DNA from: Bacteroidota bacterium
Lineage (GTDB): Bacteria; Bacteroidota; Bacteroidia; Chitinophagales; Chitinophagaceae
Assembly: GCA_030706735.1 (NCBI GenBank)
Contig: JAUZNZ010000004.1
Location: 62,001-126,000, forward strand
Reading direction: 5' to 3'
DNA length: 64,000 nucleotides
In this document: in pieces, positions 8,455-23,181 of the stretch
Layout of the letters: each line of letters begins with the position of its first letter
How positions within the stretch are numbered: position 1 is the stretch's first letter
Notes under the pieces: generated by a model
Told to the model about the DNA's origin: nothing
The model's database searches: none
Seen by the model: only the letters and a program-made list of their open reading frames with translations
Position numbers and translations under genes: made by a program

Positions 8455-9117
8455 TTATTTCAATTCAAAAACGGCGAATGACTGCCTCTCCCCGCTCTTA
8501 TTGGAGAATTTCAGCGCTGCGCCGGCCGGCACAAACAACCAGTCGCCTTTTTGGACAAAGATCTTGTCATTGACCGTCACCATGCCCCCTGCCTGATCCA
8601 GTCCGATGACGACGATGGGCGCCTTGCGCTTCGGGATATAGAGTCCGGCACGCTGTCCGACTTTGAGCCGATAACCCCGAACGAATTTTTCATCAAATAG
8701 CACCGACATATCCTTCCGGTGGAGCGGAGGCTCGATCTCCACCGGATTCTTGTTGGGCAATTCCAGGTCGATGGTATGGAAGATCGACGTATCGCTGTTC
8801 CATACCCGGTGAATGCGCGGACTGCTGGCAAAGCTTTCGTACCAGATGCTCTCCTGTGAAAATTGAACCCTGGCAGGCTCGACCAATACCTGGGAGCCCG
8901 TTTTCGTATTCCCCAGAACGATAAATACGGAAGGGGTCTCATGCTTATGCATCAACGAGGTATCGCCCGGCGGGATACGCACATCCAGTACGCGCACCCA
9001 GGGGTTCTCAAATACATTGTGATGCCGGGGCTCCAGCCTGACCGGTATAGGTTCCTGCGCAAAGCCGGTTGCCACGGCCAACAAAAACGGGATCGTTAGA
9101 AAAAATCTTCTCATCAT
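8455..9117 (-). CDS. Secreted cupin-domain protein
   Basis: A 220-residue protein with a signal peptide (MMRRFFLTIPFLLAVATGFAQ). Residues 35-110 look like a cupin barrel: WVRVLDVRIPPGDTS followed by MHKHETPSVFIVL, where the HxH pair would bind metal. A second, weaker barrel at about 150-220 ends GDWLFVPAGAALKFSNKS, so it may be bicupin. Secreted cupins serve as sugar-binding or dioxygenase-like proteins; no substrate can be inferred. ATG at 9117 or 9114 are both possible. Confidence 0.75.
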   Translation of the reverse strand: MMRRFFLTIPFLLAVATGFAQEPIPVRLEPRHHNVFENPWVRVLDVRIPPGDTSLMHKHETPSVFIVLGNTKTGSQVLVEPARVQFSQESIWYESFASSPRIHRVWNSDTSIFHTIDLELPNKNPVEIEPPLHRKDMSVLFDEKFVRGYRLKVGQRAGLYIPKRKAPIVVIGLDQAGGMVTVNDKIFVQKGDWLFVPAGAALKFSNKSGERQSFAVFELK

Positions 9118-9220
9118 GGCCTCAAATTACAAATTTTTTGGCCGGTTCGTTGAGACATTGTTATTCGGCGTCCTCATGGACGCCGTGAGCTCCGGGTCTT
9201 GGACGCCGTCAGTCCGGGTC

Positions 9221-9370
9221 TTATTGGAATCCCCCGGTAACGATGATGACCCTCGCCAGAACGCAGAGAAAGGAAGCATAATAAAGACCGATAAAGCCCA
9301 GGCAGGCGACACATTTTTTGTTCTCCGGCAGCAGGATCTTTCCGTCCATTTCTTCGATGTGCTTGTCCAT
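9221..9370 (-). CDS. Doubtful small membrane protein
   Basis: A 49-codon frame starting ATG at 9370 encodes a charged N-terminus (MDKHIEEMDGKILLPENKK) followed by one hydrophobic segment (LGFIGLYYASFLCVLARVII). The single-helix layout is reasonable for a small membrane protein, and the frame extends in a longer open frame to 9460. There is no clear ribosome binding site and the end overlaps a direct repeat, so it could be chance or a remnant. Confidence 0.25.
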   Translation of the reverse strand: MDKHIEEMDGKILLPENKKCVACLGFIGLYYASFLCVLARVIIVTGGFQ

Positions 9371-9513
9371 GATCAGCGTTTTGAAAAGAGATTCGAATAA
9401 TAGTACAACGCCCGGCCAGGAATGTAACCGACTATGCAGCAGCTTTTTGCACAAAAACATAATGTATTGATTATCAATCGCTAAATGGTTTTTGTGCGAC
9501 GCCCCATTGCCAT

Positions 9514-9546
9514 CGGTTACAATCGGTCTTTCTGCTGGTACTAATT
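9514..9546 (+). promoter_or_regulatory. Candidate ECF sigma promoter of the lipoprotein gene
   Basis: CGGTTACAATC (9514-9524) is followed after exactly 15 bases by ACTAATT (9540-9546). The same two words with the same spacing occur upstream of the ECF sigma gene at 15173-15141 on the minus strand. ECF factors recognise such -35/-10 pairs. The expected start is near 9552, giving a leader of about 50 bases before ATG 9602. The second word lies inside a 12-base palindrome (TACTAATTAGTA, 9539-9550). Confidence 0.65.
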
Positions 9547-9601
9547 AGTAGGTTCGAAGGTTTTTGATTATTTTGTAAATAGAAGCACTTAACCCATACC
9601 C

Positions 9602-10540
9602 ATGAAAAAGGACCTTAATTCGTTGAAATGGTTAGCTTTAGCCGTAATACTCACGGTTTTCGCATGCCGTAAGTCGGTTTCCGATACACCGGTGCCGCCT
9701 CAACAGCCGCCACCCCCGAATCCGCAGGATTCCACCCAACCGGTGAAAAAAGCGGATACGACCTCGACGCCGGCGGCTCCATTTCCGCAGCAGCCCCTGA
9801 CCGGCTGCGCGTACGATCCCAATTATGGAGATTCCATTATCTATCCCCAGCCGACCGACGGCCAGGATTATATCGTCCATCCCATCAATGTGCCGGGCCC
9901 AGGTAAGTTCCTGTCCTGGCCTGCAGGCCTGGTCATCGATTCCGTGACGGGCGCCATCGACGTGACCAAGAGTGAGACCGGGGAGCGGTTCGCCATCGGT
10001 TTTGTGAAGGCCGGTACCACAGATACCTGTTTGTCCAACCTGATCATCGGCGGCGGCTCTTATATGGATAGTGTGTATGTACTGGGGGACGGTCAGACGG
10101 CTGCCTACCCTTACTATGACGCAAATCCCACGCTCACGACGATATGCGGCACCGGTAACGGCAACGGCACGGGTTGCGCCTTCGACGTCACTGGATCGGC
10201 GGCTCAGATGAAAGTGGTCGTCAATCATACAACCGGCGTCATCGACCTGGACAAGACCCTGAACGGCCCGGGAGGCCTGCTTTCAAGCGGCGCATTCGGC
10301 CTGGTGCCCCTCAACGGACAGACCGTCACCACAACGATCTATTATCGGTTGAATGACCCCAGCAACCTGGCCACCCAAAAGATCCAGGTCCAGTTCATGT
10401 ATTACGACAGCAAGTCGAATATCAACCCCGGCCTGCTGGGCAGTGTCGTGAACAAGCTCGACAATATCCTGACCGGGAACCTGATCGATAAGTCGGCAAA
10501 TCCAAGGCCGCCACTCATCATTATCACCCGAAGGAACTAA
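9602..10540 (+). CDS. Lipoprotein of unknown function, predicted sigma-regulon member
   Basis: A 312-residue lipoprotein: signal peptide with lipobox VFAC (Cys22), a Pro/Gln/Thr linker to about residue 68, then a globular part. It contains two putative Ig-like modules, each with a putative-Ig signature: GLVIDSVTGAIDVTKSETG (about 114-132) and GVIDLDKTLNGPGG (about 218-231), and a Gly/Asn-rich cysteine loop between them. The second half lies on IYYRLNDPSN and QVQFMYYDSKSN. It is probably surface exposed; its function is unknown. It shares a promoter motif with the ECF sigma gene and is followed by a strong terminator, then the TPR-CHAT gene. Confidence 0.7.
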   Translation: MKKDLNSLKWLALAVILTVFACRKSVSDTPVPPQQPPPPNPQDSTQPVKKADTTSTPAAPFPQQPLTGCAYDPNYGDSIIYPQPTDGQDYIVHPINVPGPGKFLSWPAGLVIDSVTGAIDVTKSETGERFAIGFVKAGTTDTCLSNLIIGGGSYMDSVYVLGDGQTAAYPYYDANPTLTTICGTGNGNGTGCAFDVTGSAAQMKVVVNHTTGVIDLDKTLNGPGGLLSSGAFGLVPLNGQTVTTTIYYRLNDPSNLATQKIQVQFMYYDSKSNINPGLLGSVVNKLDNILTGNLIDKSANPRPPLIIITRRN

Positions 10541-10545
10541 TTGAC

Positions 10546-10570
10546 GGGCCCGCTAAAGCGGGCCCTTTTT
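10546..10570 (+). terminator. Rho-independent terminator
   Basis: An eight-base perfect stem, GGGCCCGC (10546-10553) and GCGGGCCC (10558-10565), with loop TAAA, followed by five T residues. It lies six bases after the lipoprotein stop. Confidence 0.9.
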
Positions 10571-10638
10571 ATTCGCGCAATATTCGTCACGGCCGCAGCG
10601 TTTAAAGATCATGATCGCAGCCCCATCTTTCAGCTAAA

Positions 10639-13464
10639 GTGCGTGACATGCTAGGGAAAAACACGGTATTCTTCCTGGCCTTCCAGTTGATCGTATCCTT
10701 TATTTTCGCCAATCAGGGCCCGCCGCCCGACCGCATCGCCAGGACCTACCACCGGGCCGATAGTCTCTTCCATCTTTCCAATACGACCCCTGCTACCGAC
10801 AGCGCCTCCCTGGCCGGCTTTGAAGAGGTCATCCGCGCGCTGGGGAACAACGCCCCTACGGGTTACGATGCCTCGCTACTTTTCCAATCTTATCTTAAGA
10901 AGGGCATCCTGCTGGACTCGAAGGCCAACTTTGCAGGCGCCCGCGACGCCTATCTGATGGCGCTCCACGCGCACAAAGAGATCGATTCTGCAGCCTTTGT
11001 AGCCTATATCTACGCCGGGGCCTGCTATTATAACCTGAACGATTTCGATTCCGCCAATTACTTCCTCCTCCGCGCCGAGCCCCTGATCAGTCGCTTCAAG
11101 GACCCCGAGGACGAGATCCGCCTCTACAATACCCTTGGCGTTTTGTATTATGACAATGGCAATTACCGGCAGGGCAAGAATTACTTTAGCCGTGCCCTCG
11201 AGATAGTGAAGAGCAGACAACCCTTCGATACGCTCTCCGCCGCCAGCATTGAGATCAATATGGGGACTTCGCTGTACCGCCTCGGATCTTACGAGGAGTC
11301 CCTTTCCCAGTTCCACAGCACGCTCCGCTACCGCGTTTTCGGGGATTATGTATTTATGAATATGGGCAGGGCCTATACCGCACTGGGCCGGTATGCCGAA
11401 GCCCTGTCCAGTTTCCGGAAGGTGAATTCCGCTAAAATGCCTTCCGTGTTCAATGAGATGGCGAATACGGAATGGCAGCTGAAAAGGGTCGATTCCTGCA
11501 AGTATTATCTCGACCGGCTTCAGCCATACAAGATCGCCCGCAAGCTCAATGCCCTGGACATCGGCATCAACGAATTGTACAGGGCGCAATGGCTGAACGG
11601 CCAGGGACAATACCAGGCGGCGCTGTCGGGTCTTCAGCAGGCCATCATGATCTTTTCCGGCAATTTTTCAAATCCCGACATTCTCACTAACCCTTCGGGC
11701 TTCACCGGGACCTTTACCTATTTCCATTTGTTCGATGCCCTTCTGGAAAAGGCCAGGGTATTCGGACGATTGTATCGTTCGCAACCTGAAGAGGCCTGGC
11801 TCTCGGGGGGCTTCGATGCCTACAAGGCAGCCCTGGCCATTTTGCGCTATATAGAAAAAAGCTACGATACCGACGATGCCAAATTGTTCCTGAAAAAGAA
11901 AAGCGGCGGGATCTATAAGGAGGCCCTCGACGTATGCCTCGCGCTATGGAAACGCCACCCCGACAAGAACTACCTGGAGCAGGCCTTCTCGATCGGCGAG
12001 CGCAACCGCGCCTCCATCATCGCCGCCGGCATGATGGAACGGAACTTTGCCGGCGCCCCGGGCAGTAACGAGGAGGCATTGCTCAAAAGAGAAAGGAATA
12101 TCAAGTACAATATCGCCCGCCTGAACGTAAATATCGACGAAACCCGCGACAGCCGCCGGCTCGAGCAGATGACCCGGGAAGTGGCGTCCTATGAGATCGA
12201 CCTGGCTCGCCTGCAAAAGCAGCTCGAGCACAGTGATGCCTGGTACAGGGAAAAATACGAAGATGCTTCACCCGGCATCAGCGAGATCCAACAGCGCCTG
12301 AATGGCAGGCAGGCACTCATCAGCTTCAACTCCACGGTGGATGCCCTGCACGTCTTCGTGATCACCGCCTCGTCTTTCCAATACGCCCGTATCGATTCAC
12401 TCGCGGCCCTGCAGCATGATATCGGCAGCTGGCTGAACGAGCTCAGAACGACCGGCAACGGCAAAAGGTTCAGGGGCGAAGAGATCGGCTCGCGGCTCTA
12501 CGAAAGACTGGTCAGGCCGATCCGGAAAATGGCCGGCGATAAGCCGGAATGGATCATCATTCCCCATGGGATCCTTTATGAGCTGCCATTCGAGTCGCTT
12601 CCTTCAGGTGATGCCGGGGAACCATTATTGGTCAAAACCACCATCAGCTACCAATTCTCCGCACGCCTCCTGCTCTCCTCATCTCAGGACGACAAGAATG
12701 CGCTCGGGCCGTCGGCCTATAAGATCCTTGCCTTTGCGCCTTTTGCGGGAGGTAATGGACGCCCTTTATCGGGGTTCAACCCGCTGCCGGCCTCCGCCGA
12801 TGAGATCGCTTCACTTCCCGGCGCCCAATTTTTGGACAGTGCGGCGACGAAGGTCCGGTTCCTGAAAGAGATGAACAACTATCCCATCATCCACCTGGCG
12901 ACCCACGCGGTCTCTTCATTCGACAATGCCGCCGAATCCTTCGTTGCCTTCTATCCGCAGAAAGGAGTCCGGGTGGAAGATTGCCTGTTTCTCGAAGAAC
13001 TATACGGATTGAATATGAGTAAGACCAGGCTGGTGGTCATCAGCGCCTGCGAGACGGGTCAGGGGGAACTGGTCAGCAATGAGGGAGTGATCAGCCTGGC
13101 AAGGGCCTTCACCTATGCCGGCTGCGAAAGCACGGTCTCGAGTTTGTGGAAGGCAAATGACAAAGCCACTTCGTTCATCCTCAAACGCTTTCATGTGTAT
13201 TTGCAGGAGGGTTACGATAAGGCAAAAGCGCTGCAACAAGCTAAATTGGACTATATAGCGAGTGATGCGGTGGAAAAGAGTCCCGCCTACTGGTCGCATC
13301 TTATTTTGATCGGAGATACCGCGCCCTTGGTCAGGGCCGGACATTCGCAGGTTTATTATTGGGTGGCCTGCCTTGCAGCAGCGGCTGTTCTTTTCATCCT
13401 GGCCGCAAGAAGAAGGAAAAAGAAAAAAAGTCGACGTCTTTCACAGAAGGAGGATCTTAATTAA
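10639..13464 (+). CDS. TPR-CHAT protein, membrane-anchored caspase-like protease
   Basis: A 941-residue protein. It has an N-terminal export signal, about seven TPR units over residues 85-380 (for example DFDSANYFLLRAEPLI and GNYRQGKNYFSRALEI), a coiled-coil at 464-530, a CHAT domain at about 555-890, and a C-terminal transmembrane helix (905-926) with a Lys/Arg-rich tail. The CHAT catalytic dyad is intact: His756 in HLATHAV and Cys804 in ISACETG. CHAT domains are caspase-like peptidases, usually activated through attached sensor repeats. With the signal and single C-terminal helix, TPR and CHAT parts would face the periplasm. GTG 10639 and ATG 10648 are both possible starts. It converges with the sigma/TPR operon. 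Its target is unknown; the neighbouring TPR membrane protein is a candidate. Confidence 0.88.
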   Translation: MRDMLGKNTVFFLAFQLIVSFIFANQGPPPDRIARTYHRADSLFHLSNTTPATDSASLAGFEEVIRALGNNAPTGYDASLLFQSYLKKGILLDSKANFAGARDAYLMALHAHKEIDSAAFVAYIYAGACYYNLNDFDSANYFLLRAEPLISRFKDPEDEIRLYNTLGVLYYDNGNYRQGKNYFSRALEIVKSRQPFDTLSAASIEINMGTSLYRLGSYEESLSQFHSTLRYRVFGDYVFMNMGRAYTALGRYAEALSSFRKVNSAKMPSVFNEMANTEWQLKRVDSCKYYLDRLQPYKIARKLNALDIGINELYRAQWLNGQGQYQAALSGLQQAIMIFSGNFSNPDILTNPSGFTGTFTYFHLFDALLEKARVFGRLYRSQPEEAWLSGGFDAYKAALAILRYIEKSYDTDDAKLFLKKKSGGIYKEALDVCLALWKRHPDKNYLEQAFSIGERNRASIIAAGMMERNFAGAPGSNEEALLKRERNIKYNIARLNVNIDETRDSRRLEQMTREVASYEIDLARLQKQLEHSDAWYREKYEDASPGISEIQQRLNGRQALISFNSTVDALHVFVITASSFQYARIDSLAALQHDIGSWLNELRTTGNGKRFRGEEIGSRLYERLVRPIRKMAGDKPEWIIIPHGILYELPFESLPSGDAGEPLLVKTTISYQFSARLLLSSSQDDKNALGPSAYKILAFAPFAGGNGRPLSGFNPLPASADEIASLPGAQFLDSAATKVRFLKEMNNYPIIHLATHAVSSFDNAAESFVAFYPQKGVRVEDCLFLEELYGLNMSKTRLVVISACETGQGELVSNEGVISLARAFTYAGCESTVSSLWKANDKATSFILKRFHVYLQEGYDKAKALQQAKLDYIASDAVEKSPAYWSHLILIGDTAPLVRAGHSQVYYWVACLAAAAVLFILAARRRKKKKSRRLSQKEDLN

Positions 13465-13580
13465 TAGGACTTTAAAACAGGGAATTGGAATAACACAGGC
13501 TTTCAGGGATACGTCGACTTTTCACGGGGTACGAGGCAATGATGTTCTTCATGGGTTGGTTGTCTTTTCGGAGGATTAGG

Positions 13581-13673
13581 TTCGGTCTTCGCTGGATTTG
13601 GAATGGTTCTTTCAGTGGATCGGATCGTTCGGTCTTCAGTGGATTGGATCGGTTTTTCAGTGATTTGGATCGG
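13581..13673. repeat. Imperfect 47-base tandem duplication
   Basis: Two composite units (13581-13627 and 13628-13673) each consist of a TTCGGTCTTC-led block and a TTTCAGTG-led block ending GGATCGG-like. It lies in the probable 3' untranslated region of the CHAT gene, upstream of its terminator. Short frames crossing it do not look like protein. The rest of the 13465-13759 gap holds only this repeat and the terminator. Confidence 0.55.
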
Positions 13674-13691
13674 CGCCTTACATCAATTAGT

Positions 13692-13742
13692 AACCGCCGG
13701 GGCCTGGCGCGTAACCGACCGCCGGCGGTTTTATATTTTTTT
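13692..13742 (+). terminator. Terminator after the TPR-CHAT gene
   Basis: A nine-base perfect inverted repeat, AACCGCCGG (13692-13700) and CCGGCGGTT (13722-13730), with a 21-base loop, followed by TTATATTTTTTT on the plus strand. It lies about 230 bases after the CHAT stop and just before the convergent TPR gene. Confidence 0.65.
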
Positions 13743-13759
13743 AATTAACTGATTACCAT

Positions 13760-14530
13760 CTATTTACGAGCCTTGTTGCGGATGATCCGCAAATCCAGGG
13801 AGGACATCCTCCCGATTACCGGGTGATAAAGGTGGTTCTTATCGGCCTTGATCTTCTCGATCAGCGGCAAAGCAGCTTCCGCCTCGTTGTTGGCCAGATA
13901 ACTCATGGCAAGATAGTACTCCGCCTCGTCCTGGAAGAGGTCGCTGCCCGAGCGGTTATTCTCAGCCAATACCTGCGTGAATTTCTCTATCGCTTCAGGA
14001 TAGTCCTTCAACTCCAGGTTGGCCATCCCCGTCAGGAAGTAAGATTGATTGTTCTTTTCCTTGGATGTATTGAACAGCGTGATCACCTCCGCCCATTTCT
14101 TTTCGTTATACGCCTGCTCCATCGGATCGGCTGTTACCGTGCTGCGCGTAGTATTCAGATCATAGCTGGCAAAGTATTCCTTGTACATCCCGCTGGCGCT
14201 CGTGGTCGTATATTTATAAACCGCGGCCCCTCCCGCCATAACCAACACGCAGGCGGCTACACGAGTGATATTCCGGTACATACTCGTCACCCTCGCCCTG
14301 TTGTATTTGACGATTTCCGCGGATTTCGTCGATACCCAATGGTTCCTGGCAGCGGATACCTGCTCATATACGGCGGCTTCCTCAATCGCATCGACTGCCA
14401 GCAGAAGAACCTGCCATTCACTGGCTGCCTGGCGGTCATTCCTGATCAGCTGTTCCACGTCGGGCAATCCGATGCCCTGCAGGCTGCTGTCGAGGTGATC
14501 GATCATTAATTCTTCGTTGATGGGTGACAT
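13760..14530 (-). CDS. Single-pass membrane TPR protein, candidate anti-sigma factor
   Basis: A 256-residue protein: about 88 residues of acidic/helical N-terminus, one transmembrane helix (about 90-107, ITRVAACVLVMAGGAAVY), and TPR-like repeats in the C-terminal half (KKWAEVITLFNTSKEK, DYPEAIEKFTQVLAEN, NNEAEAALPLIEKIK). With no signal peptide the N-terminus should be cytoplasmic and the TPR part periplasmic, the topology of transmembrane anti-sigma factors. It starts six bases after the stop of the ECF sigma gene, so the two are cotranscribed. The N-terminus has no recognised zinc-binding or FecR domain; the anti-sigma role rests on topology and position only. Confidence 0.65.
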   Translation of the reverse strand: MSPINEELMIDHLDSSLQGIGLPDVEQLIRNDRQAASEWQVLLLAVDAIEEAAVYEQVSAARNHWVSTKSAEIVKYNRARVTSMYRNITRVAACVLVMAGGAAVYKYTTTSASGMYKEYFASYDLNTTRSTVTADPMEQAYNEKKWAEVITLFNTSKEKNNQSYFLTGMANLELKDYPEAIEKFTQVLAENNRSGSDLFQDEAEYYLAMSYLANNEAEAALPLIEKIKADKNHLYHPVIGRMSSLDLRIIRNKARK

Positions 14531-14536
14531 GATTTC

Positions 14537-15139
14537 TTATTTATTTATTTCGTTGATCTGACCCGCCAGCTGCGGGTTACTTTTGATCAACCCGGTCAAT
14601 TGCTGCAGGCATTTATATTTCTTATTCCTTACCACCTGCTCGTTTTCGTAGGGCAGGTAATCGACTATTTCTCTCATGGACAGATTCTCGTAATAGAACA
14701 GCATCAGGATCTTCCGGCATGGCTCCCCCAGCTTGTAGACCAGCTCACGCAGTTGCTGCTGCTTTTCGTGATCGCTGATGAATTCGCTGACATCCGCTTC
14801 ATTCTGCTCCCGGCCGGACTCGAATTGCTTTTCCCGCTGTCCGGACCGCTCTCGCTTCCTGATCTCATTGAACCAGATATTCTTGGCAATGGAGACCAGG
14901 AAGGTCTTGATGCTTGCCTCCCCCCGGTATTTGTCCTTCTTGAGGACGCCGATGAAGCAAAGCACCGTCTCCTGGAAGACATCTTCGGCATCCTGCCGGC
15001 TTCCGCCATATCCCATGATAAAAGAACTTGTCGATTCGGCGTACTGCTGATACAGATAATCGATGGCCTGATTCAGCTCCTGGCTATCGTTGATCGCAGC
15101 GATCAGCTCTGCATCAGTATATTTTCCGACGACTTTCAT
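14537..15139 (-). CDS. ECF-type RNA polymerase sigma factor
   Basis: A 200-residue sigma-70 family protein. Region 2 contains GSRQDAEDVFQETVLCFIG and KTFLVSIAKNIWFNEIRKRE; region 4 contains LGEPCRKILMLFYYENLSM, then REIVDYLPYENEQVVRNKKY as the helix-turn-helix. A charged linker (about 100-125) joins them. It leads an operon with the membrane TPR protein. Its own upstream region carries the same CGGTTACAATC-N15-ACTAATT element as the lipoprotein gene at 9602, suggesting autoregulation. The second box ends one base before the ATG, so the transcript may be leaderless. Confidence 0.88.
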   Translation of the reverse strand: MKVVGKYTDAELIAAINDSQELNQAIDYLYQQYAESTSSFIMGYGGSRQDAEDVFQETVLCFIGVLKKDKYRGEASIKTFLVSIAKNIWFNEIRKRERSGQREKQFESGREQNEADVSEFISDHEKQQQLRELVYKLGEPCRKILMLFYYENLSMREIVDYLPYENEQVVRNKKYKCLQQLTGLIKSNPQLAGQINEINK

Positions 15140-15140
15140 A

Positions 15141-15173
15141 AATTAGTAAGTGCTGTGTCTGTGATTGTAACCG
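15141..15173 (-). promoter_or_regulatory. Candidate autoregulatory ECF promoter
   Basis: On the minus strand CGGTTACAATC (15173-15163), 15 bases, then ACTAATT (15147-15141), identical in both words and spacing to the element at 9514-9546. It sits directly before the sigma-factor ATG (15139). Confidence 0.65.
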
Positions 15174-15354
15174 GTAAGGGCCGGAAAAATCTTTTCGGAT
15201 TGGGTATCAGGGAACCTAAGAACGGCGAGCATGTCGATTCCTTCCATAAATATATTCATAATTAGCTCGATATGAGCATTTTATGGCAAATATCCCCCAT
15301 TCGGGCGATAAATATACCCAAATACATGAGCCTCATCCGTTTATCTCACACCCC

Positions 15355-18300
15355 CTAAAGCTTCAGCAATTTCCGTATTTCTTTCCATTCTCCGACCTGT
15401 ACCAATAGGAGGTAGCTTCCAGGTGCCAGTCCGTTCACCGGGACCTGGTTACTACTGACCTGCCCCTCCTTCCTCGATTCCCACCGGCGCAGAGGTTTTC
15501 CCCTTCCGTCGAGGATCATAATTTTCAAAGGGCCCACATGTGCATTGTTCAGCCTTAACGTGACTTGTTCCCCGGCGGGATTAGGATAGATGATAAGGTC
15601 GCCTGGCGCGCCCAGGGCACTGTCGCTTCCCCCAAAGTTGGCCGCATAAGCCCCGACAGGATCCCGGACCGTCCCCCCGGTTGACCCGGTGGACGAGGTC
15701 AGTTCGGTGACCGCGAATCCGTTTAAATAGTTATATCCGGTGGGTGTGCTGATCGTGATCACGATCTTTCCGGAGCTATTGGCCTTGACCCCGCTAAAGA
15801 CGGCCTTATTGTTCAGGTTGTTGAAGCTCAGCACGGTGTCCGATGCCTGTCTCGCGATCGCAAATACGCTCTTTTGACCCGGGTTCGAATTCCGGCTGGC
15901 ATACAGCTCGATAGTATACGTGGCTGCCGTCTTCAGGCCATTCAACGTAAGGGTTCGCGTGGTTTCGCAATAGCTTGTAAATCGCAGGACGGCGGCCGGA
16001 GCCATGGTGCCTCCATAGGATGCTCCATTGTCCACGACGGATTCATTGACGCTCAGGCCCGCGGTGGCGCCGGATGATGTGCCATCCGAATAGGTGAGGG
16101 TAGGCGAGGTGACCCCGCTATTTACGTTCCAGTTATTCCACTGCGTATTGGTATAGGGGCTCGTCCCGCCATATAGGTTCACATTGATCATCTTGCTCAC
16201 GGTGCCACTGTTGACCGTCACCGTGATCGTATCGGTACTGGTTGTCCCCAGGTTGTCGGTCACCGTTAGCTGGAACAGATAGGTGCCCTGAATAAGTCCC
16301 TTGACGACGGTGGTCGCTGCCGATGGAGTGACCAGGGTATCGGAGGCAGGTCCTGATAATTGTGTCCATAAATAGGAGGTCAACGGTCCGCTGGATCCGC
16401 TGCCATTCAGCGTGGTTTGATTGGCCGGCCATACGATCGCTTGATTGGCCCCGGCATCCGCGACAAGCGGTGGCGGCGGGGTCACCGTTACTTGGACCGT
16501 CGCCGAACTGTCTCCGTTCACCGTCAATTGAAAAACATACTCGCCCTGCACCAGGCCTGTAACCAGGGTGCTGTCCGACGAGGGCGATACGATCGTGTCA
16601 CCATCAGGCCCGGAGACCTGCGTCCAGGCATAGGAAGTGATGGCGCCGGTGGATGCGCTCCCGTTCAGCATGGCCTGGCTCGTCGGCAGGACAATCGTTT
16701 GTGCCGGCCCCGCATTGGCAGCCAGTGCGGGCACTCCATTGACAGTGACCGTCGCTACGGCGCTGATTTGCTGGCCATGTCCATCCGTGACCGTGGCCTG
16801 GAACAGGTTCGTCCCCTGGGTAAGTCCATTGATCACTGTGCCGGCCGAGCCGGGCGCAGCGATCGTGGCGGCCGAGTTGATCAGGTTCTGGAAAATATTC
16901 GTTCCCGCCAAGACATTGAATAACTGCCGGTGCCCCTGATCATTGTCATGCACATTATCCGCGGAGGAGGGATAGAGCCGTTTCGTCGTGCCCGGCACGA
17001 CGATCGGATCATAAAAGTCCATGGCGCGCGAACCGAATCGGAGGAGGATACTGTCGCGCAATGCCTGCAGTTTGGACTGGACGCTTGCGGAAAAATCCTC
17101 CCGCGGTTGCGTCGTCGTAATATAGACCTGCGCCCCATTCGCCGCCGCTGCATTGTACAGGAGCTGCAGCCCGTTCATGACATCCGACGTGCCCAGCACA
17201 TCATATCCGTTATTCGGGAAATTGATGACGATAAGGTCCGGACCCAAGCTTAGGGCTTTCGTAACATTGATTGCCGGGTCGACGGCGGCATTGCTTGCAC
17301 CCAACGCATTCACGACGGAAGCCGGCGCCACATAACCCGTCGGCATCGCATTGTAGGGATTATAGCCGGACACGCTCAGGTTGACCACATTGGCCGTCAG
17401 CCCCTGCGCGGCATAGTATCGGGTAAAACGGCCGACAAAGGAGGAGTCGGGCACGCTGGCGCCCACTCCGGCCGTCGAGGATGAGCCCATGAAGACGACG
17501 GTTTTCGGCGTCTGCCCCGGCGCTTTGAATTTGGTCCATTTGACCGAGTTCAGGCTCGAGCCTGTCACCACAGGATTCATGTTCACGTTTATGCTGGTCG
17601 TCGGCAGGGTAATCGTCTGCGACGCCGGTGAAAGGGTTACTATCGGCGAGGCATAGGGAGTATTCGACAATACCTGCACATCCACGGTGCTGGTCGCGAC
17701 TGCGCCCGTATCGTCCGTAAGCGTTAATTGAAAGGTATACGTCCCCGCGACCAGGCCGGTAATCTGCGTGCTGGAGGCGCCCGGCGATTTAATGGTATCG
17801 GACAGAGGCCCGATCAATTGCCTCCAGCTGTAGGAGACAATGGCCCCCGTCGATGCGCTGGCGCTCAACGTCACTTTATTGGTCGGCAGGGTGATCGACT
17901 GTGAACTGCCCGCATTGGCAACCAGCGGGGGCGGATTGACGGTAACTTGTACGGTCGATCTGCTCCCTCCGTTCAGGGTCAGCTGAAATAGATAGACGCC
18001 CTGTACGAGTGCCGATACCCTGGTGCTCACAGTCGTCGGAGTGGCAATGGTTGCCATTGAGGGCCCGGAGACCTGCGTCCACGCATAGGCAGTGATCGTT
18101 CCCGTCGAGCCGCTGCCACTCAGGGTGACCTGGCTCGTAGGTAAGGTAATGGTTTGCGGGGCGCCGGCATTGGCGACAGGCGGTGGAGGCGCAGCATTTA
18201 CGGTGATCTGAACCGTCGATGTGCTGCCTCCGGTCACTGCCAGCTGGAAGACATAGACCCCTTGCGCCAACCCGGTCACCATCGTACTCACTGCGGTGGG

Positions 18301-19317
18301 TGATTTAATGGTATCTCCGGCAGGTCCCGAGAGCTGCGCCCAGGAGTAGGACGTGATATTGCCCGTGGACCCGCTTCCGTTCAACGTGACCGTATTGACC
18401 GGCAACGAAATCGTTTGCGCGGTCCCCGCATTGGCGACCGGAACCACCGGGATCGGGATTCGCGAGTTCCCGAGCATCCAGGAGTAAATGCTATAGTTGG
18501 TCTTTATACTCCTCCAGGTAAAGTTCTCCGTATACCCGGGATTATAGAACGGATTCCAGGGTCCGTGACCGGTAGTAAAAGAGGTGAATCGCGCATAGCC
18601 TGACTTGGCCTTGTTGATGACCGTGCTGAAGTCTTGTACAAAGCCTCCGTACAGATCGTGGTTAGCATCCCCGAAACCCCACAGGGGAATCGAGTCCGAT
18701 ACATCGATATTCCCCCACGTTTGCGTCGGATCGTTGCTGGCCTGGCTCATGGGCACAATGTCGGCTGGCTTGTACTTGCGCGCGTCCTTTGTCAGTGAAG
18801 GCGCGTCCTCATTGGGATCCAGTTGGGCGGCATATTCCGCCACACCAGCGCCCCCGGCCGATACACCGGTCAGGTGTATGCGATTCACGTCAACCCGGTA
18901 CGTGGCTACCAGGTAGTTGACGATATTCGCCAGTTGATCGCCGCTGATCGACCAGGTACTGGCCTGCGGCGAAACCACGATGAATTGTTCCTGGGCCCCG
19001 TTTACCGGGTTGCTGAAAGAGGCCGGCCACCCGCCATGTTCGATAAAATAAGCGGGACCTCCGTAGCTCGCCTGGTTATAGATCTTGGCCAGACCCGTTC
19101 CTGTGCTGGCCCCATCGGCAGCTTCGGAAGCGCTGTGGCAGAAAACCAACAAAGGGTAGCTTTTCGTCGTCGTGGAGTAATCGGAAGGCAGGTAAACGAG
19201 CGCTTTATAAGTGGGCGAAGCGCTGGCGGTATAGGGGACGTTGATCGTTGATTCAAGCTGGGCATGGGTTGTAGCCCAATACAACATAGTAATACTGGAT
19301 AATAAAATTCTTTTCAT
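15355..19317 (-). CDS. Secreted two-enzyme esterase with PKD-like repeats and T9SS domain (copy A)
   Basis: A 1320-residue protein. After a signal peptide, residues about 20-290 are an alpha/beta-hydrolase of the esterase/PHB-depolymerase type (Ser in LTGVSAGGAG, near 154; GDANHDLYGG and TGHGPWN supply likely Asp/His). Three PKD/REJ-like repeats (each beginning ANAG..Q.I.LP) follow. An SGNH/GDSL hydrolase (about 600-800) has MGSSSTAG, INFPNNGYD and DNVHDNDQGH blocks, and is embedded in a fourth repeat. Two more repeats, a malectin-like domain (about 1042-1200, MINVNLYGG) and a T9SS type A sorting domain (IIYPNPAGEQVTL) complete it. It probably removes acyl groups from a plant or microbial polysaccharide at the cell surface. 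Copy B lies directly upstream. Confidence 0.85.
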   Translation of the reverse strand: MKRILLSSITMLYWATTHAQLESTINVPYTASASPTYKALVYLPSDYSTTTKSYPLLVFCHSASEAADGASTGTGLAKIYNQASYGGPAYFIEHGGWPASFSNPVNGAQEQFIVVSPQASTWSISGDQLANIVNYLVATYRVDVNRIHLTGVSAGGAGVAEYAAQLDPNEDAPSLTKDARKYKPADIVPMSQASNDPTQTWGNIDVSDSIPLWGFGDANHDLYGGFVQDFSTVINKAKSGYARFTSFTTGHGPWNPFYNPGYTENFTWRSIKTNYSIYSWMLGNSRIPIPVVPVANAGTAQTISLPVNTVTLNGSGSTGNITSYSWAQLSGPAGDTIKSPTAVSTMVTGLAQGVYVFQLAVTGGSTSTVQITVNAAPPPPVANAGAPQTITLPTSQVTLSGSGSTGTITAYAWTQVSGPSMATIATPTTVSTRVSALVQGVYLFQLTLNGGSRSTVQVTVNPPPLVANAGSSQSITLPTNKVTLSASASTGAIVSYSWRQLIGPLSDTIKSPGASSTQITGLVAGTYTFQLTLTDDTGAVATSTVDVQVLSNTPYASPIVTLSPASQTITLPTTSINVNMNPVVTGSSLNSVKWTKFKAPGQTPKTVVFMGSSSTAGVGASVPDSSFVGRFTRYYAAQGLTANVVNLSVSGYNPYNAMPTGYVAPASVVNALGASNAAVDPAINVTKALSLGPDLIVINFPNNGYDVLGTSDVMNGLQLLYNAAAANGAQVYITTTQPREDFSASVQSKLQALRDSILLRFGSRAMDFYDPIVVPGTTKRLYPSSADNVHDNDQGHRQLFNVLAGTNIFQNLINSAATIAAPGSAGTVINGLTQGTNLFQATVTDGHGQQISAVATVTVNGVPALAANAGPAQTIVLPTSQAMLNGSASTGAITSYAWTQVSGPDGDTIVSPSSDSTLVTGLVQGEYVFQLTVNGDSSATVQVTVTPPPPLVADAGANQAIVWPANQTTLNGSGSSGPLTSYLWTQLSGPASDTLVTPSAATTVVKGLIQGTYLFQLTVTDNLGTTSTDTITVTVNSGTVSKMINVNLYGGTSPYTNTQWNNWNVNSGVTSPTLTYSDGTSSGATAGLSVNESVVDNGASYGGTMAPAAVLRFTSYCETTRTLTLNGLKTAATYTIELYASRNSNPGQKSVFAIARQASDTVLSFNNLNNKAVFSGVKANSSGKIVITISTPTGYNYLNGFAVTELTSSTGSTGGTVRDPVGAYAANFGGSDSALGAPGDLIIYPNPAGEQVTLRLNNAHVGPLKIMILDGRGKPLRRWESRKEGQVSSNQVPVNGLAPGSYLLLVQVGEWKEIRKLLKL

Positions 19318-19485: not shown

Positions 19486-22400
19486 TCACAATTTGATCAG
19501 CACGCGGCTATCCCTCCAGTTGTTTACCTGCACGACGATGAAGTAGATTCCCGCAGCCAGGCCGCTCACCGGTACTTCTATGCTGCTGCTGATCCCTTCC
19601 TTCCTCAATTCCGTCTTGCGAAGGATCACCCCGGCCCGATCCAGTATCGTTATTCGAAGCGCGCCCGTATGCACATTGTTCAAATATAAAGTAGCCTGAT
19701 CCCCCGCGGGGTTTGGATAGATCAGGAACTCACCCGACCCGCTCGCATCCCGGTTGCTATCGCGGCCGCCAAAGGAAGCCGCATGAGCGCTCGGGACCTC
19801 CGAACCCATTCCGCCGTTCGTTCCGTTTGAAGAGGTTTCGGTGATCGCGAATCCATTTAAATAGTTGTACCCGGTCGGCGTACTGATCGTGATCACGATC
19901 CTTCCGGAGCTATTGGCCTGGACACCGCTGAAGACGGCCTTATCGGTCAGGTTCCTGTAGGTCAGCACCGTGTCCGATACCTGCCCTGCGATCGCGAATA
20001 CGCTTTTTTGACCCGAGTTCGAATTCCGGCTGGCATACAACTCGATCGTATACGAGGCCGCCGTCTTCAGACCGTTTAACGTCAGCGTGCGCGTGATCTC
20101 GCAATAGCTGGCGTATCTCAATACGGGTGCGGGAGCCATGGTGCCGCCATAATTCGCTCCATTGTCTACCACGGACTCATTGATGCTGAGACTTGCGGTG
20201 ACTCCGGAAGACGTCCCGTCCGAATAGGTCAGGGTAGGGGAATTGATCCCGTTATTGACATTCCAGTTGTTCCATTGCGAATTCGAGTACGGATTCGTGC
20301 CGCCATATACGTTTACATTGATCATTTTTCCCGTGATGGCATTATTGACCGTCACGGTGGTCGTAGCAATGCTGGTTGCACCCAGGTTATCGGTGACCAT
20401 TAGCTGAAATACGTAAATGCCCTGCACCAGCCCCCTGACGATCGTAGCGACGGCAGACGGCGAGACGAGGGTATCCATGGCCGGCCCGGACACCTGGGTC
20501 CAGGCATAAGAGGTTATATTGCCGCTGGAGGCGCTGCCATCCAGTGTCACCTGGCTTGTCGGCAAATAGATCGTCTGCGGGCTCCCGGCATTGGCAACCG
20601 GATTGGCGCCCTGGTTGACCGTCACCGTCGCTATCGCGTTGGCATCCTGGCCATGGCTGTCGATAACTGTAGCCTGGAACTGGTGAGTGCCGACGGTCAG
20701 GCCCGTGATGGCGGTGCTGGCAGACCCTGGACTGCTGATCACGGACGGAGAACTGATCTTGTTCTTAAAGATATTGGTTCCGACCACTATATTGAAGAGC
20801 TGCCTGTGGCCCCGGTCATTCAGGTGAATGTCATCATCGTCGTCGTCAGCGGGATAGAGACGCCTGGTAGTGCCTGGCACGGTGACCGCATCGTAAAAAT
20901 TCATGGCATGCGGACCGAAACGCAGCAGGATGCTGTCACGCAGCACCTGCAGGAAGGCTTGCCTGGAGGCGGTAAAATCCTCCCTGGGTTGCGTAGTTGT
21001 CACAAAACATTCAGCGCCATTGGCTGCAGCGGCATTATACAGGGTCTGTAAACCGTTCATGATATCCGCCGTGCTCAATACATCGTAACCATTTGTTGGG
21101 AAGCTGATGACGATCATATCCGGGCTGTAGCTTAACGCCTTCGTGACATTGATCGTCGGGTCCACGGCTGCCCCTGCGGCGCCCAACACATTAACGACAG
21201 AGGAGGGTGCGACATACCCTGTGGGCATTGCGTTGTACAGATTGATGCCCGACGTTCCGAGGTTGACGACCCGGCTGATCATCCCCTGGGCAGTGTAAAA
21301 ATTGGTAAATCGCCAAACATAGGCGGAATCTTCCGTGCTGGCGCCGGAACCGGCGGTCGTCGACGATCCCAGGAAGACAACGGTCTTTGGCGTCTGGCCC
21401 GGCGTTTTGAATTTGCTCCAATTGATCGAATTCAGGCTCGCGCCGGTGAGCACGAAGCTTACCGTTTCATTCACCGAAGATGCCGGCAACGAAATGGTCT
21501 GCGTTGGCGCGACGATGGAAGCTACCGGCGAGGCATAGCCAGTATTCGAATTGACGGTGACATTGACCGTGCCGGTCGCGAATGCGCCCAGGTCGTCCGT
21601 GACCCGCAATTGAAAAGTATATACGCCCGCAACCAAACCCGTGACGACCGTGATCGCCGATGTGGGGGACTGGATCGAACCCGGATCCGGCCCGGTTATC
21701 TTGGTCCACAGGTAAGCGGTTATATTGCCGGTGGAGGCGCTCCCATTCAGCGTAACCTGGTTGGTTGGCAGGGTGATCGTTTGGGGAGTCCCGGCGTTGG
21801 CGACCAGAGGCGCCGTGGGATTCACCGTGACCTGCACCGTCGCCGTACTGCCACCCGTTACGGTCAATCGGAAAACATATACCCCTTGCACCAGCCCGGT
21901 GACCAGGGTGCTGACCGAATTGGGAGCGGTGATAGTGGCCGTCGAAGGGCCGGATACCTGCATCCAGGCATAAGAAGTAATATTTCCCGTAGAGGCGTTC
22001 CCATTCAGCGTAACCTGGTTGGTTGGCAGGGTAATCGTCTGTGCCGGCCCCGCATTGGCTACAGGCCCGGTGGGAACGGAGATCCTGGAATTCCCGAGCA
22101 TCCAGCTGTACATGCTGTAGTTCGATTGGCGATTTCTCCACGTGAAGTTCTCGGTGTATGCAGGATTGTAGAATGGGTTCCAGGGGCCATGACCGGTGTT
22201 GAAGGACGTGAAGCGGGCATAGCCCGATTTGGCATGGTTGATGACGGTGGTCAGGTTCAGGGTAAACTCACCGTACAGATCATTGTTCTCATCGCCGAAT
22301 CCCCAATCAGGGATCGAATCCGCCACGATCACATTTCCCCATGCCTGCGTCGGATTGTTGGTCGCCTCACTCATGGCGACCATGTCGGCGGGTTTCCATC

Positions 22401-22965
22401 GCCTGACACGCGCGCTTTGGGATGGAGGATCTTCGTCAGGGTTCATCTGGGCTGCATATTCCACGACGCCGGCCCCGCCCGAGGAGACCCCCGTAAGGTG
22501 TATGCGGCTGGTATCGACGCGGTAATTGGCGACCAGAAAATTGACTATATAGGCCAGTTCGTCGCCATTGATAGCCCAGGTATTCGATTGCGGCGATACG
22601 ACAATGAATTGCTCCTGCCTTCCATTCACCGGGTTGGTGAAGGTGGCCGGCCATCCGCCGTGCTCGATAAAATAGGCAGGGCCTCCATAGCTCGCCTGGT
22701 TATAGATCTTGGCCAGCCCCGTCCCTGCGCTGGCGCCATCTGCCGCCTCTGACGAATTGTGGCAAAAGACCAGCAAAGGATAATTCATGCTTGTGCTGCT
22801 GTAATCCGAAGGCAGATAAAGCAGCGCCTGAAAAGTGGGCGAACTGCTTGCGGTGTAAGGAACATTTATCGTTCTTTCCACCTGGGCGCTTGCAATGACT
22901 ATATTAAATAAGGAGAGGAGGCAGACCAGTGCTGTTCTGCTGAGTGTGAGTAGTTCTTTTTTCAT
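19486..22965 (-). CDS. Secreted two-enzyme esterase with PKD-like repeats and T9SS domain (copy B)
   Basis: A 1159-residue paralog of the neighbouring gene with the same order of parts: signal peptide, alpha/beta-hydrolase (Ser in LTGVSSGGAG, near 162), PKD-like repeats, SGNH hydrolase (about 523-718; FLGSSTTAG, ISFPTNGYD, IHLNDRGH) nested in a repeat, one repeat, malectin-like domain (from about 882, MINVNVYGG) and T9SS sorting domain (FLIYPNPAGDQATL). It has four repeats including the interrupted one, against six in copy A, which accounts for the size difference. ATG 22965 directly precedes the signal peptide; the frame extends 26 codons further without supporting features. A tandem duplication is the simplest explanation. 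Confidence 0.85.
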   Translation of the reverse strand: MKKELLTLSRTALVCLLSLFNIVIASAQVERTINVPYTASSSPTFQALLYLPSDYSSTSMNYPLLVFCHNSSEAADGASAGTGLAKIYNQASYGGPAYFIEHGGWPATFTNPVNGRQEQFIVVSPQSNTWAINGDELAYIVNFLVANYRVDTSRIHLTGVSSGGAGVVEYAAQMNPDEDPPSQSARVRRWKPADMVAMSEATNNPTQAWGNVIVADSIPDWGFGDENNDLYGEFTLNLTTVINHAKSGYARFTSFNTGHGPWNPFYNPAYTENFTWRNRQSNYSMYSWMLGNSRISVPTGPVANAGPAQTITLPTNQVTLNGNASTGNITSYAWMQVSGPSTATITAPNSVSTLVTGLVQGVYVFRLTVTGGSTATVQVTVNPTAPLVANAGTPQTITLPTNQVTLNGSASTGNITAYLWTKITGPDPGSIQSPTSAITVVTGLVAGVYTFQLRVTDDLGAFATGTVNVTVNSNTGYASPVASIVAPTQTISLPASSVNETVSFVLTGASLNSINWSKFKTPGQTPKTVVFLGSSTTAGSGASTEDSAYVWRFTNFYTAQGMISRVVNLGTSGINLYNAMPTGYVAPSSVVNVLGAAGAAVDPTINVTKALSYSPDMIVISFPTNGYDVLSTADIMNGLQTLYNAAAANGAECFVTTTQPREDFTASRQAFLQVLRDSILLRFGPHAMNFYDAVTVPGTTRRLYPADDDDDDIHLNDRGHRQLFNIVVGTNIFKNKISSPSVISSPGSASTAITGLTVGTHQFQATVIDSHGQDANAIATVTVNQGANPVANAGSPQTIYLPTSQVTLDGSASSGNITSYAWTQVSGPAMDTLVSPSAVATIVRGLVQGIYVFQLMVTDNLGATSIATTTVTVNNAITGKMINVNVYGGTNPYSNSQWNNWNVNNGINSPTLTYSDGTSSGVTASLSINESVVDNGANYGGTMAPAPVLRYASYCEITRTLTLNGLKTAASYTIELYASRNSNSGQKSVFAIAGQVSDTVLTYRNLTDKAVFSGVQANSSGRIVITISTPTGYNYLNGFAITETSSNGTNGGMGSEVPSAHAASFGGRDSNRDASGSGEFLIYPNPAGDQATLYLNNVHTGALRITILDRAGVILRKTELRKEGISSSIEVPVSGLAAGIYFIVVQVNNWRDSRVLIKL

Positions 22966-23181
22966 ACAACTGGGTTTAGGGGGTGATAGGGATATTGAGG
23001 CAAGAACAATCCTCAACATATTGCAAAGTAATCCGGGTTTCATACCGTGAAGATGACGGCTGATCTAAGCCGGAATGATTTGGATCAGGAGGATATATGA
23101 AATAACAAAGGATTAGCAATCCGTAATGACCGGATAATCTACTTTTGTGGCTGGCCGCCTATCAGGCCGCGGAAAAAGAGT

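Follow-up and report, generated by a model that had tools for sequence, protein, structure and literature searches.

In the Csx29/Csx30/CASP-sigma system, as set out in the part of the published account drawn on here (PMC10028731), the TPR-CHAT protease Csx29 cleaves the CASP-sigma inhibitor Csx30; protease, inhibitor and extracytoplasmic function (ECF) sigma factor are encoded together, and the sigma factor's motifs lie within its own locus. In the RpoE-RseA and SigW-RsiW pairs, a bipartite promoter precedes the ECF gene, which is followed by the gene for a one-pass membrane protein. For Bacteroidota, the portion of PMC9723704 used here describes the Flavobacterium psychrophilum motif SM6, an ECF-type promoter class with an ECF/anti-sigma pair among its targets. 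Here we describe a locus that resembles all of these. It lies in a window of 64,000 nucleotides (the whole stretch of DNA analyzed; contig JAUZNZ010000004.1, positions 62,001 to 126,000, of the Chitinophagaceae assembly GCA_030706735.1). The genes for an ECF sigma factor and for a TPR protein, probably a one-pass membrane protein, stand on one strand, and those for a lipoprotein and a TPR-CHAT protein converge on them (Table 1). A two-part element, GGTTAC(A)-N18-TACtAAT, recurs within this locus, and sequence comparison makes it likely that this ECF sigma factor uses the element as its promoter for a set of transcripts there.

An earlier note on this DNA had pointed to a matched pair, CGGTTACAATC-N15-ACTAATT. 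Both copies are present exactly, at 9514-9546 (+) and 15173-15141 (-), with 18 bases and the spacing identical, and with up to three mismatches allowed the pattern has 4 matches in the window, compared with a mean of 0.01 in 100 dinucleotide shuffles. The note's remark that there is no third copy does not hold: the 5.8-kb locus contains four copies of GGTTAC-N18-TACTAAT, one of them one base off. The two sites beyond the pair face a 49-aa open reading frame (ORF; site 9429-9399, -) and a non-coding repeat region (site 13716-13686, -). Across the genome (5.05 Mb), the near-full pattern GGTTACAATC-N15-ACTAAT is found exactly at the original pair and nowhere else, and the shorter core GTTAC-N18-TACTANT occurs exactly six times, with four occurrences in the window, all within the locus. 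Matches with 1-2 mismatches were not enriched genome-wide. The signal consists of exact and near-exact matches and their placement, not of loose matches. One genome site, C4:18010, lies under an opposite-strand ORF and was set aside.

The sigma protein belongs to the ECF group (group 4 of sigma-70): it matches NCBIfam sigma70-ECF at E 7e-22, over the cut-off, and Pfam Sigma70_r2 at E 7e-10, and its match to Sigma70_r4_2 (E 0.011) is under the cut-off for that family. A search with this protein supplied the relatives, of which the best 80 of 105 were kept. The element stands just before the sigma gene in 52/54 loci whose ECF protein is at least 38% identical, and in 3/26 loci below that level. 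Its presence also tracks a short helix stretch of region 4. Where EQ[VI]xRNKKYKC is present, TTAC-N18-NAC lies upstream in 57/59 loci; where the stretch is absent, the upstream site is found in 0/21 (80 loci in total, a count that replaces the 48/56 given by an earlier, too narrow regular expression). The two exceptions that have the stretch, L087 and L095, carry variant -10 boxes. In the reading preferred here, sigma region 4 would recognize GGTTAC as the -35 element, and region 2 would recognize TACTAAT as the -10 element. Given that the sigma gene's own promoter carries the motif seen at the presumed targets, autoregulation of this ECF sigma factor is well supported by sequence comparison, and the element is very likely recognized by the sigma factor of this locus.

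Genomes of the same genus show a corresponding distribution. Exact sites number 35 in the 20 genomes with a sigma orthologue at E <=1e-68 (one or more in 16 genomes; 0.29 per Mb), compared with 4 in the 13 genomes without an orthologue (one or more in 3 genomes; 0.07 per Mb). The binomial p for this association is 0.002, or 0.004 with the window's own genome excluded, in a test that ignores ancestry and in which several exact sites per genome stem from one locus. Alternatively, the locus could be co-regulated by a different transcription factor that uses the element as its operator, or by a different sigma factor that uses it as a promoter, with the ECF factor of the locus not reading it; we regard this as improbable. 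The four exact sites in three orthologue-free genomes (G001, G004 and G008, of which G001 and G004 are only 80-83% complete) would suit such a regulator, but the element is non-palindromic, keeps a fixed 18-base spacing and has a single orientation before the sigma start, and it accompanies the region-4 stretch (57/59 loci) and is absent where the stretch is absent (0/21). In addition, the own-genome ECF matches C57, C24 and C49, which are those among the 5 listed (of 16) that are neither the sigma gene nor its paralogue, have no adjacent site with up to 2 mismatches. The paralogous locus in the same genome, L151, has the same layout (sigma identity 41%) and carries the element before both the sigma and the lipoprotein gene, in variants whose -10 boxes have 2 and 3 mismatches.

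Sites elsewhere in the related loci were sought with a position weight matrix (PWM), which we preferred to a fixed consensus because the latter penalized lineage variants of the -10 box; the fixed-consensus counts (sigma gene 44/59, post-anti-sigma 43/59, lipoprotein 14/44) were accordingly replaced. The search used 59 of 82 loci (80 relatives, L151 and the window), those that contain the sigma gene as well as the TPR protein with its stop codon. The matrix was trained on the sigma-gene sites (54/59 loci, 51 distinct), and permutation within boxes served as the control. A site behind the TPR gene, the candidate anti-sigma gene, was found in 47/59 loci, whereas permuted matrices found a mean of 0.59 and at most 6, and the opposite strand yielded 1. 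The lipoprotein gene is preceded by a site in 25/44 loci (permuted mean 0.44, maximum 3), and the 5 sites on the opposite strand are divergent sites, present in 5/44 loci (window, L072, L073, L075 and L082; permuted mean 0.44, maximum 4). Near duplicates, such as L114 and L115 from one assembly, are included, so these counts are not independent. The lipoprotein site is lineage-restricted: it is found in 0/8 Niastella-type loci within 450 bases of the match start.

Site position is conserved across these loci while the spacer sequence varies, which, together with the shuffle comparison in the window and the PWM results, already contradicts the view that the pair matches by chance or through a mobile repeat and has no function. 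Two-mismatch matches are indeed common and mostly lie under ORFs (20 of the 24 two-mismatch genome sites looked at lie under an ORF of at least 100 codons; 30 of 41 sites examined), but we consider this explanation very improbable. In G100, several exact matches repeat a single 31-base sequence almost unchanged (contigs C18 and C20) and were not counted as promoters. The note's suggestion, with the ECF factor driving both its own gene and that of the lipoprotein, is the best reading: the element stands at the sigma gene in nearly all close relatives and at the lipoprotein gene in somewhat more than half of the loci. The set is larger than that pair, comprising four sites in the window and extending to a small membrane protein and to a DUF4382 gene or a non-coding repeat region.

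The position of the sigma start codon bears on the 5' end of the mRNA. The window's sigma ATG, at 15139, begins 2 bases after the box, and an in-frame TAA two codons ahead of it, within the -10 box, prevents any upstream extension of the ORF. Provided that the box does serve as a -10 element, the sigma mRNA must start at or very near the AUG. Among 52 loci, the first in-frame ATG lies 1-3 bases after the box in 24 and 10-14 bases after it in 28; L103, one of the 24, has a second in-frame ATG where its relatives start. We think it probable, judging from these positions, that in the lineage of the window the sigma mRNA opens with the AUG or has it close to its 5' end. For comparison, the part of PMC9723704 considered here gives the leaderless share of mapped mRNAs in F. 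psychrophilum as 5.5%.

The products of the remaining genes suggest how the sigma factor might be controlled. The window's CHAT protein can be assigned to the CHAT peptidases and carries the motifs HLATH and SACETG; its N-terminus is signal-like, and a hydrophobic segment lies at its C-terminal end. Among 58 loci with a long CHAT match, scored by script, both motifs are present in 46, the C-terminal segment in 50, and an N-terminal segment over a strict threshold in 24. The TPR protein has an N-terminal domain, one hydrophobic segment near residues 88-104 and C-terminal TPRs. By hydropathy, a 17-residue peak is present in 30/30 aligned orthologues, and a 19-residue peak in 25/30, the window protein failing the longer setting. 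Fold comparison gave TPR-type matches for residues 129-256 and barely covered the N-terminal domain, and a profile of the TPR protein matches RsiW weakly in its N-terminal part (E 0.43). From its place behind the sigma gene and these features, we infer that the TPR protein is a membrane anti-sigma factor. The lipoprotein has no Pfam match at E <=1 and no NCBIfam match at E <=0.1, and its predicted fold resembles immunoglobulin (Ig)-/cadherin-like sandwiches with query TM-scores of 0.15-0.21 among the 50 matches listed, which offers no functional clue. PADLOC gave no match at E <=0.01 for the four locus proteins.

Gene order and shared promoters fit a protease-gated circuit. In this proposal, the membrane TPR protein would keep the sigma factor inactive until a signal led the exported, membrane-anchored TPR-CHAT protease to cut it outside the cytoplasm. 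The freed sigma factor would then amplify expression of the locus, activating its own gene and that of the anti-sigma factor, the lipoprotein-CHAT pair and the 49-aa membrane protein, as well as the transcript behind the anti-sigma gene, which would encode a lipoprotein-like protein (often DUF4382) or, in the window, consist of repeat RNA. Cleavage of the TPR protein by CHAT is proposed by analogy with RseA/RsiW and Csx29, and we hold this step as a tentative suggestion, somewhat less probable than its contrary.

Several observations weigh against these interpretations. Loosened patterns are not enriched: in the window, the core with up to 2 mismatches has 7 matches where 4.07 are expected (16/100 shuffles reach 7), and in the genome it has 20 matches, forward and reverse, with up to 1 mismatch, compared with 204 for the backward control, and 41 with up to 2 mismatches, compared with 140. 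In ten relatives, too, the one-mismatch pattern is no commoner than the control, so the regulon looks small and centered on the locus. Within the genus, no exact site occurs in 4 of the 20 sigma-positive genomes, and 3/13 sigma-negative ones have at least one. Exact sites are also absent from five genomes in other genera whose sigma relative matches at E <=4e-38 (G034, G036, G040, G053 and G055), and 7/65 genomes outside the genus hold one chance-like exact site each. The lipoprotein site is missing from 19/44 loci and the post-anti-sigma site from 12/59. The loci are related, the permutation, Fisher and binomial tests ignore ancestry, and training and test sites of the PWM share loci. Recognition and regulation are read from sequence, and cleavage of the TPR protein by CHAT is a conjecture. 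Finally, the anti-sigma assignment draws on position, one hydrophobic segment that in the window protein falls short of the 19-residue threshold and the weak RsiW match.

What follows the element behind the TPR gene differs between lineages. In the clade-B loci L102, L104-L106, L111 and L142, the first ORF encodes a lipoprotein-like protein related to the product of the paralogue's DUF4382 gene (Pfam DUF4382 was found in L104, E 4e-21, and L151, E 2e-13). A 136-aa gene comes first in L103 and L131, and other lipoprotein-like genes occupy this place in the Algoriphagus, Pararhodonellum, Aquiflexum and Mucilaginibacter loci, that of L114 having no Pfam match. The window's lineage has no such gene there and carries imperfect repeats instead. 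Over 17 loci (5,617 nt), the word TCCAAT occurs 51 times in sense and 0 times in antisense orientation (2.3 expected) and TGAAAA 47 and 2 times (3.6 expected), and the longest sense ATG ORF per locus spans 7-65 codons. A closing inverted repeat with AAAGTCG is present in 11/15 related loci. All 200 shuffles of the window RNA fold better than the RNA itself, but this tendency is weak over 16 loci (mean z 0.65, 11 positive; mean -0.04 for 45 control segments). No Rfam match at E <=1 was found in window positions 9000-15400.

Niastella-type loci have the same promoter at this place, followed by units of 84-98 nt in tandem (8 loci yielded 33 units; 3-7 units per array). These structured units of ~88 nt, with GGAAACCUG...CAGAGAAACCUG, occur in L086, L089-L092, L096, L126 and L129. 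Covariation was assessed in 27 units, on a structure that was itself predicted from their alignment: pairing holds in 98.5% of cells, and both-side changes occur in 12 cells, compared with 3.9 in shuffles (0/500). Less striking were the both-side-changed pairs (4 vs 2.2; 16/500 as high) and further pair types (17 vs 15.9; 108/500). The apical hairpin is freely variable and, in 21/33 units, as stable as or stabler than all but 5% of shuffles. A covariance model found 42 units in 9/13 genomes, eight of which have all matches on one contig within ~1 kb; in G106 the matches are spread over two contigs, and no unit was found in four genomes of other types, in a scan that scored 150 first-look candidates per genome, which leaves room for rarer or weaker copies elsewhere. 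Rfam at gathering thresholds returned only two tRNAs from 8 related loci.

Two unrelated repeat arrays, one little-structured with ATCCAAT/TGAAAA and one of structured ~88-nt units, thus occupy the same promoter-led place, and on these sequence features both are probably non-coding RNAs. It is also conceivable, though unlikely, that what lies behind the third promoter is no RNA gene but a double-sided terminator or a spacer in which repeats have accumulated, and that the promoter is a relic of a lost DUF4382 gene. The inverted repeat that closes the region and the DUF4382-type gene present there in several clade-B loci and in the own-genome paralogue, with none in the window's lineage, would agree with such a history. 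Against it, the promoter is exact or near-exact in many loci without a gene there, the repeat words are one-stranded, and the Niastella-type units are conserved, structured and, in 8/9 genomes, confined to one contig within ~1 kb. We consider it fairly likely from the sequence pattern that the window's non-coding RNA is a real transcript. Directly after the -10 box, at 13685-13678 (-), the predicted RNA begins with ATG immediately followed by TAA, a possible leaderless start-stop; the same ATG-TAA start follows the box at the same place in L073, L075, L082 and L087.

The 49-aa ORF, divergent from the lipoprotein gene, has one hydrophobic segment and no Pfam match. Relatives were found by tblastn in L072, L075 and L082, each behind a divergent element, so that 4/5 divergent-site loci have a similar small ORF, L073 being the one without. 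Judged by eye, similar proteins also occur behind the element in L165 (elsewhere in genome G022) and at the end of L071. Outside the locus, a 737-aa protein (L152 4767-7052) has its ATG 41 bases downstream of the exact own-genome site C40:23766; its start is signal-like and it matches neither Pfam nor NCBIfam. This protein is a likely further target, judging from the placement of the site. In other genomes, the element precedes proteins of 114-127 aa that by eye resemble sigma region 2 (L160 in G032, L161 in G013 and L173 in G002); the two scanned, those of L160 and L161, have no Pfam match. The own-genome one-mismatch site C2:45853 has no ORF of at least 60 codons starting within 150 bases behind it. 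After the element there (L183 1501-1670), a hairpin-like stretch and a T run are seen, possibly another small RNA.

The locus layout recurs in other Chitinophagaceae and in the Mucilaginibacter, Algoriphagus, Pararhodonellum and Aquiflexum loci. The window itself probably stems from a Puia-like bacterium of the Chitinophagaceae, given that Puia dinghuensis (L083, in G108) agrees in contig positions and sites with G009, a genome listed under the window's genus. Beside it in the window, two long, similar proteins are encoded in tandem on the minus strand, at 15355-19317 (1320 aa) and 19486-23043 (1185 aa); we take them to resemble secreted esterase-type proteins with repeated domains.

Table 1. 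Genes, promoter elements and predicted RNA of the locus (window positions; support as available).
Feature	Positions	Strand	Support
49-aa small membrane-protein ORF, MDKHIEEMDGKILLP..., divergent from lipoprotein	9221..9370	-	tblastn relatives
Promoter element GGTTAC-N18-TACTATT facing 49-aa ORF	9399..9429	-	PWM 23.3
Promoter element of lipoprotein-CHAT pair, core 9515-9545	9514..9546	+	PWM 23.2
Lipoprotein LP, lipobox-like TVFACRK, predicted Ig/cadherin-like fold	9602..10540	+	predicted local distance difference test (pLDDT) 84
TPR-CHAT protein, alternative GTG start 10639	10648..13464	+	Pfam CHAT E 1.6e-52
Inverted repeat AAAAGTCGACGT/ACGTCGACTTTT, likely bidirectional terminator (CHAT and predicted RNA)	13425..13523	.	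sequence
Predicted non-coding RNA, imperfect ~21-base repeats GATCCAATCCxxTGAA, array 13593-13673	13425..13685	-	
Promoter element behind candidate anti-sigma gene, exact GGTTAC-N18-TACTAAT	13686..13716	-	PWM
TPR protein, putative membrane anti-sigma factor	13760..14530	-	position, domains
ECF sigma factor, region-4 stretch NEQVVRNKKYKC	14537..15139	-	Pfam, NCBIfam
Promoter element of sigma gene, core 15142-15172	15141..15173	-	

A literature search found no paper combining an ECF sigma factor, a CHAT domain and Bacteroidetes, and the titles and abstract openings covered, with most subscription journals outside the search, describe neither the motif nor the RNA. The element provides an exact, transferable recognition sequence for a Bacteroidota ECF group, tied to a candidate region-4 recognition stretch, and predicts a regulon for a CHAT protein. 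One conserved regulatory place, moreover, harbors two apparently undescribed RNA arrays.

Beyond the shared gene order and bipartite promoter, the TPR-protein profile's weak match to RsiW is a further likeness to SigW-RsiW. In contrast to RpoE-RseA and SigW-RsiW, the boxes here are GGTTAC and TACTAAT, the presumed anti-sigma factor has C-terminal TPRs, a TPR-CHAT partner and a convergent lipoprotein are present, and some of the loci have the AUG directly beside the -10 box. SM6, as characterized in the portion of PMC9723704 used here, differs from our element in its CGT -10 box and in targets that include several type IX secretion system (T9SS) components. Compared with Csx29/Csx30/CASP-sigma, again as given in the part of PMC10028731 drawn on, the CHAT protein here looks exported and membrane-anchored, and the presumed inhibitor is a TPR membrane protein. 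It is a speculative possibility, and on balance an unlikely one, that the whole forms a protease-gated ECF switch, a membrane-bound counterpart of Csx29/Csx30/CASP-sigma, whose sigma factor also makes a locus-specific RNA, with the two unrelated designs (Puia-type, little-structured; Niastella-type, structured) being new RNA classes that act in the response. If TPR-CHAT does control the ECF factor, protease-released sigma factors of this kind exist outside CRISPR type III-E.

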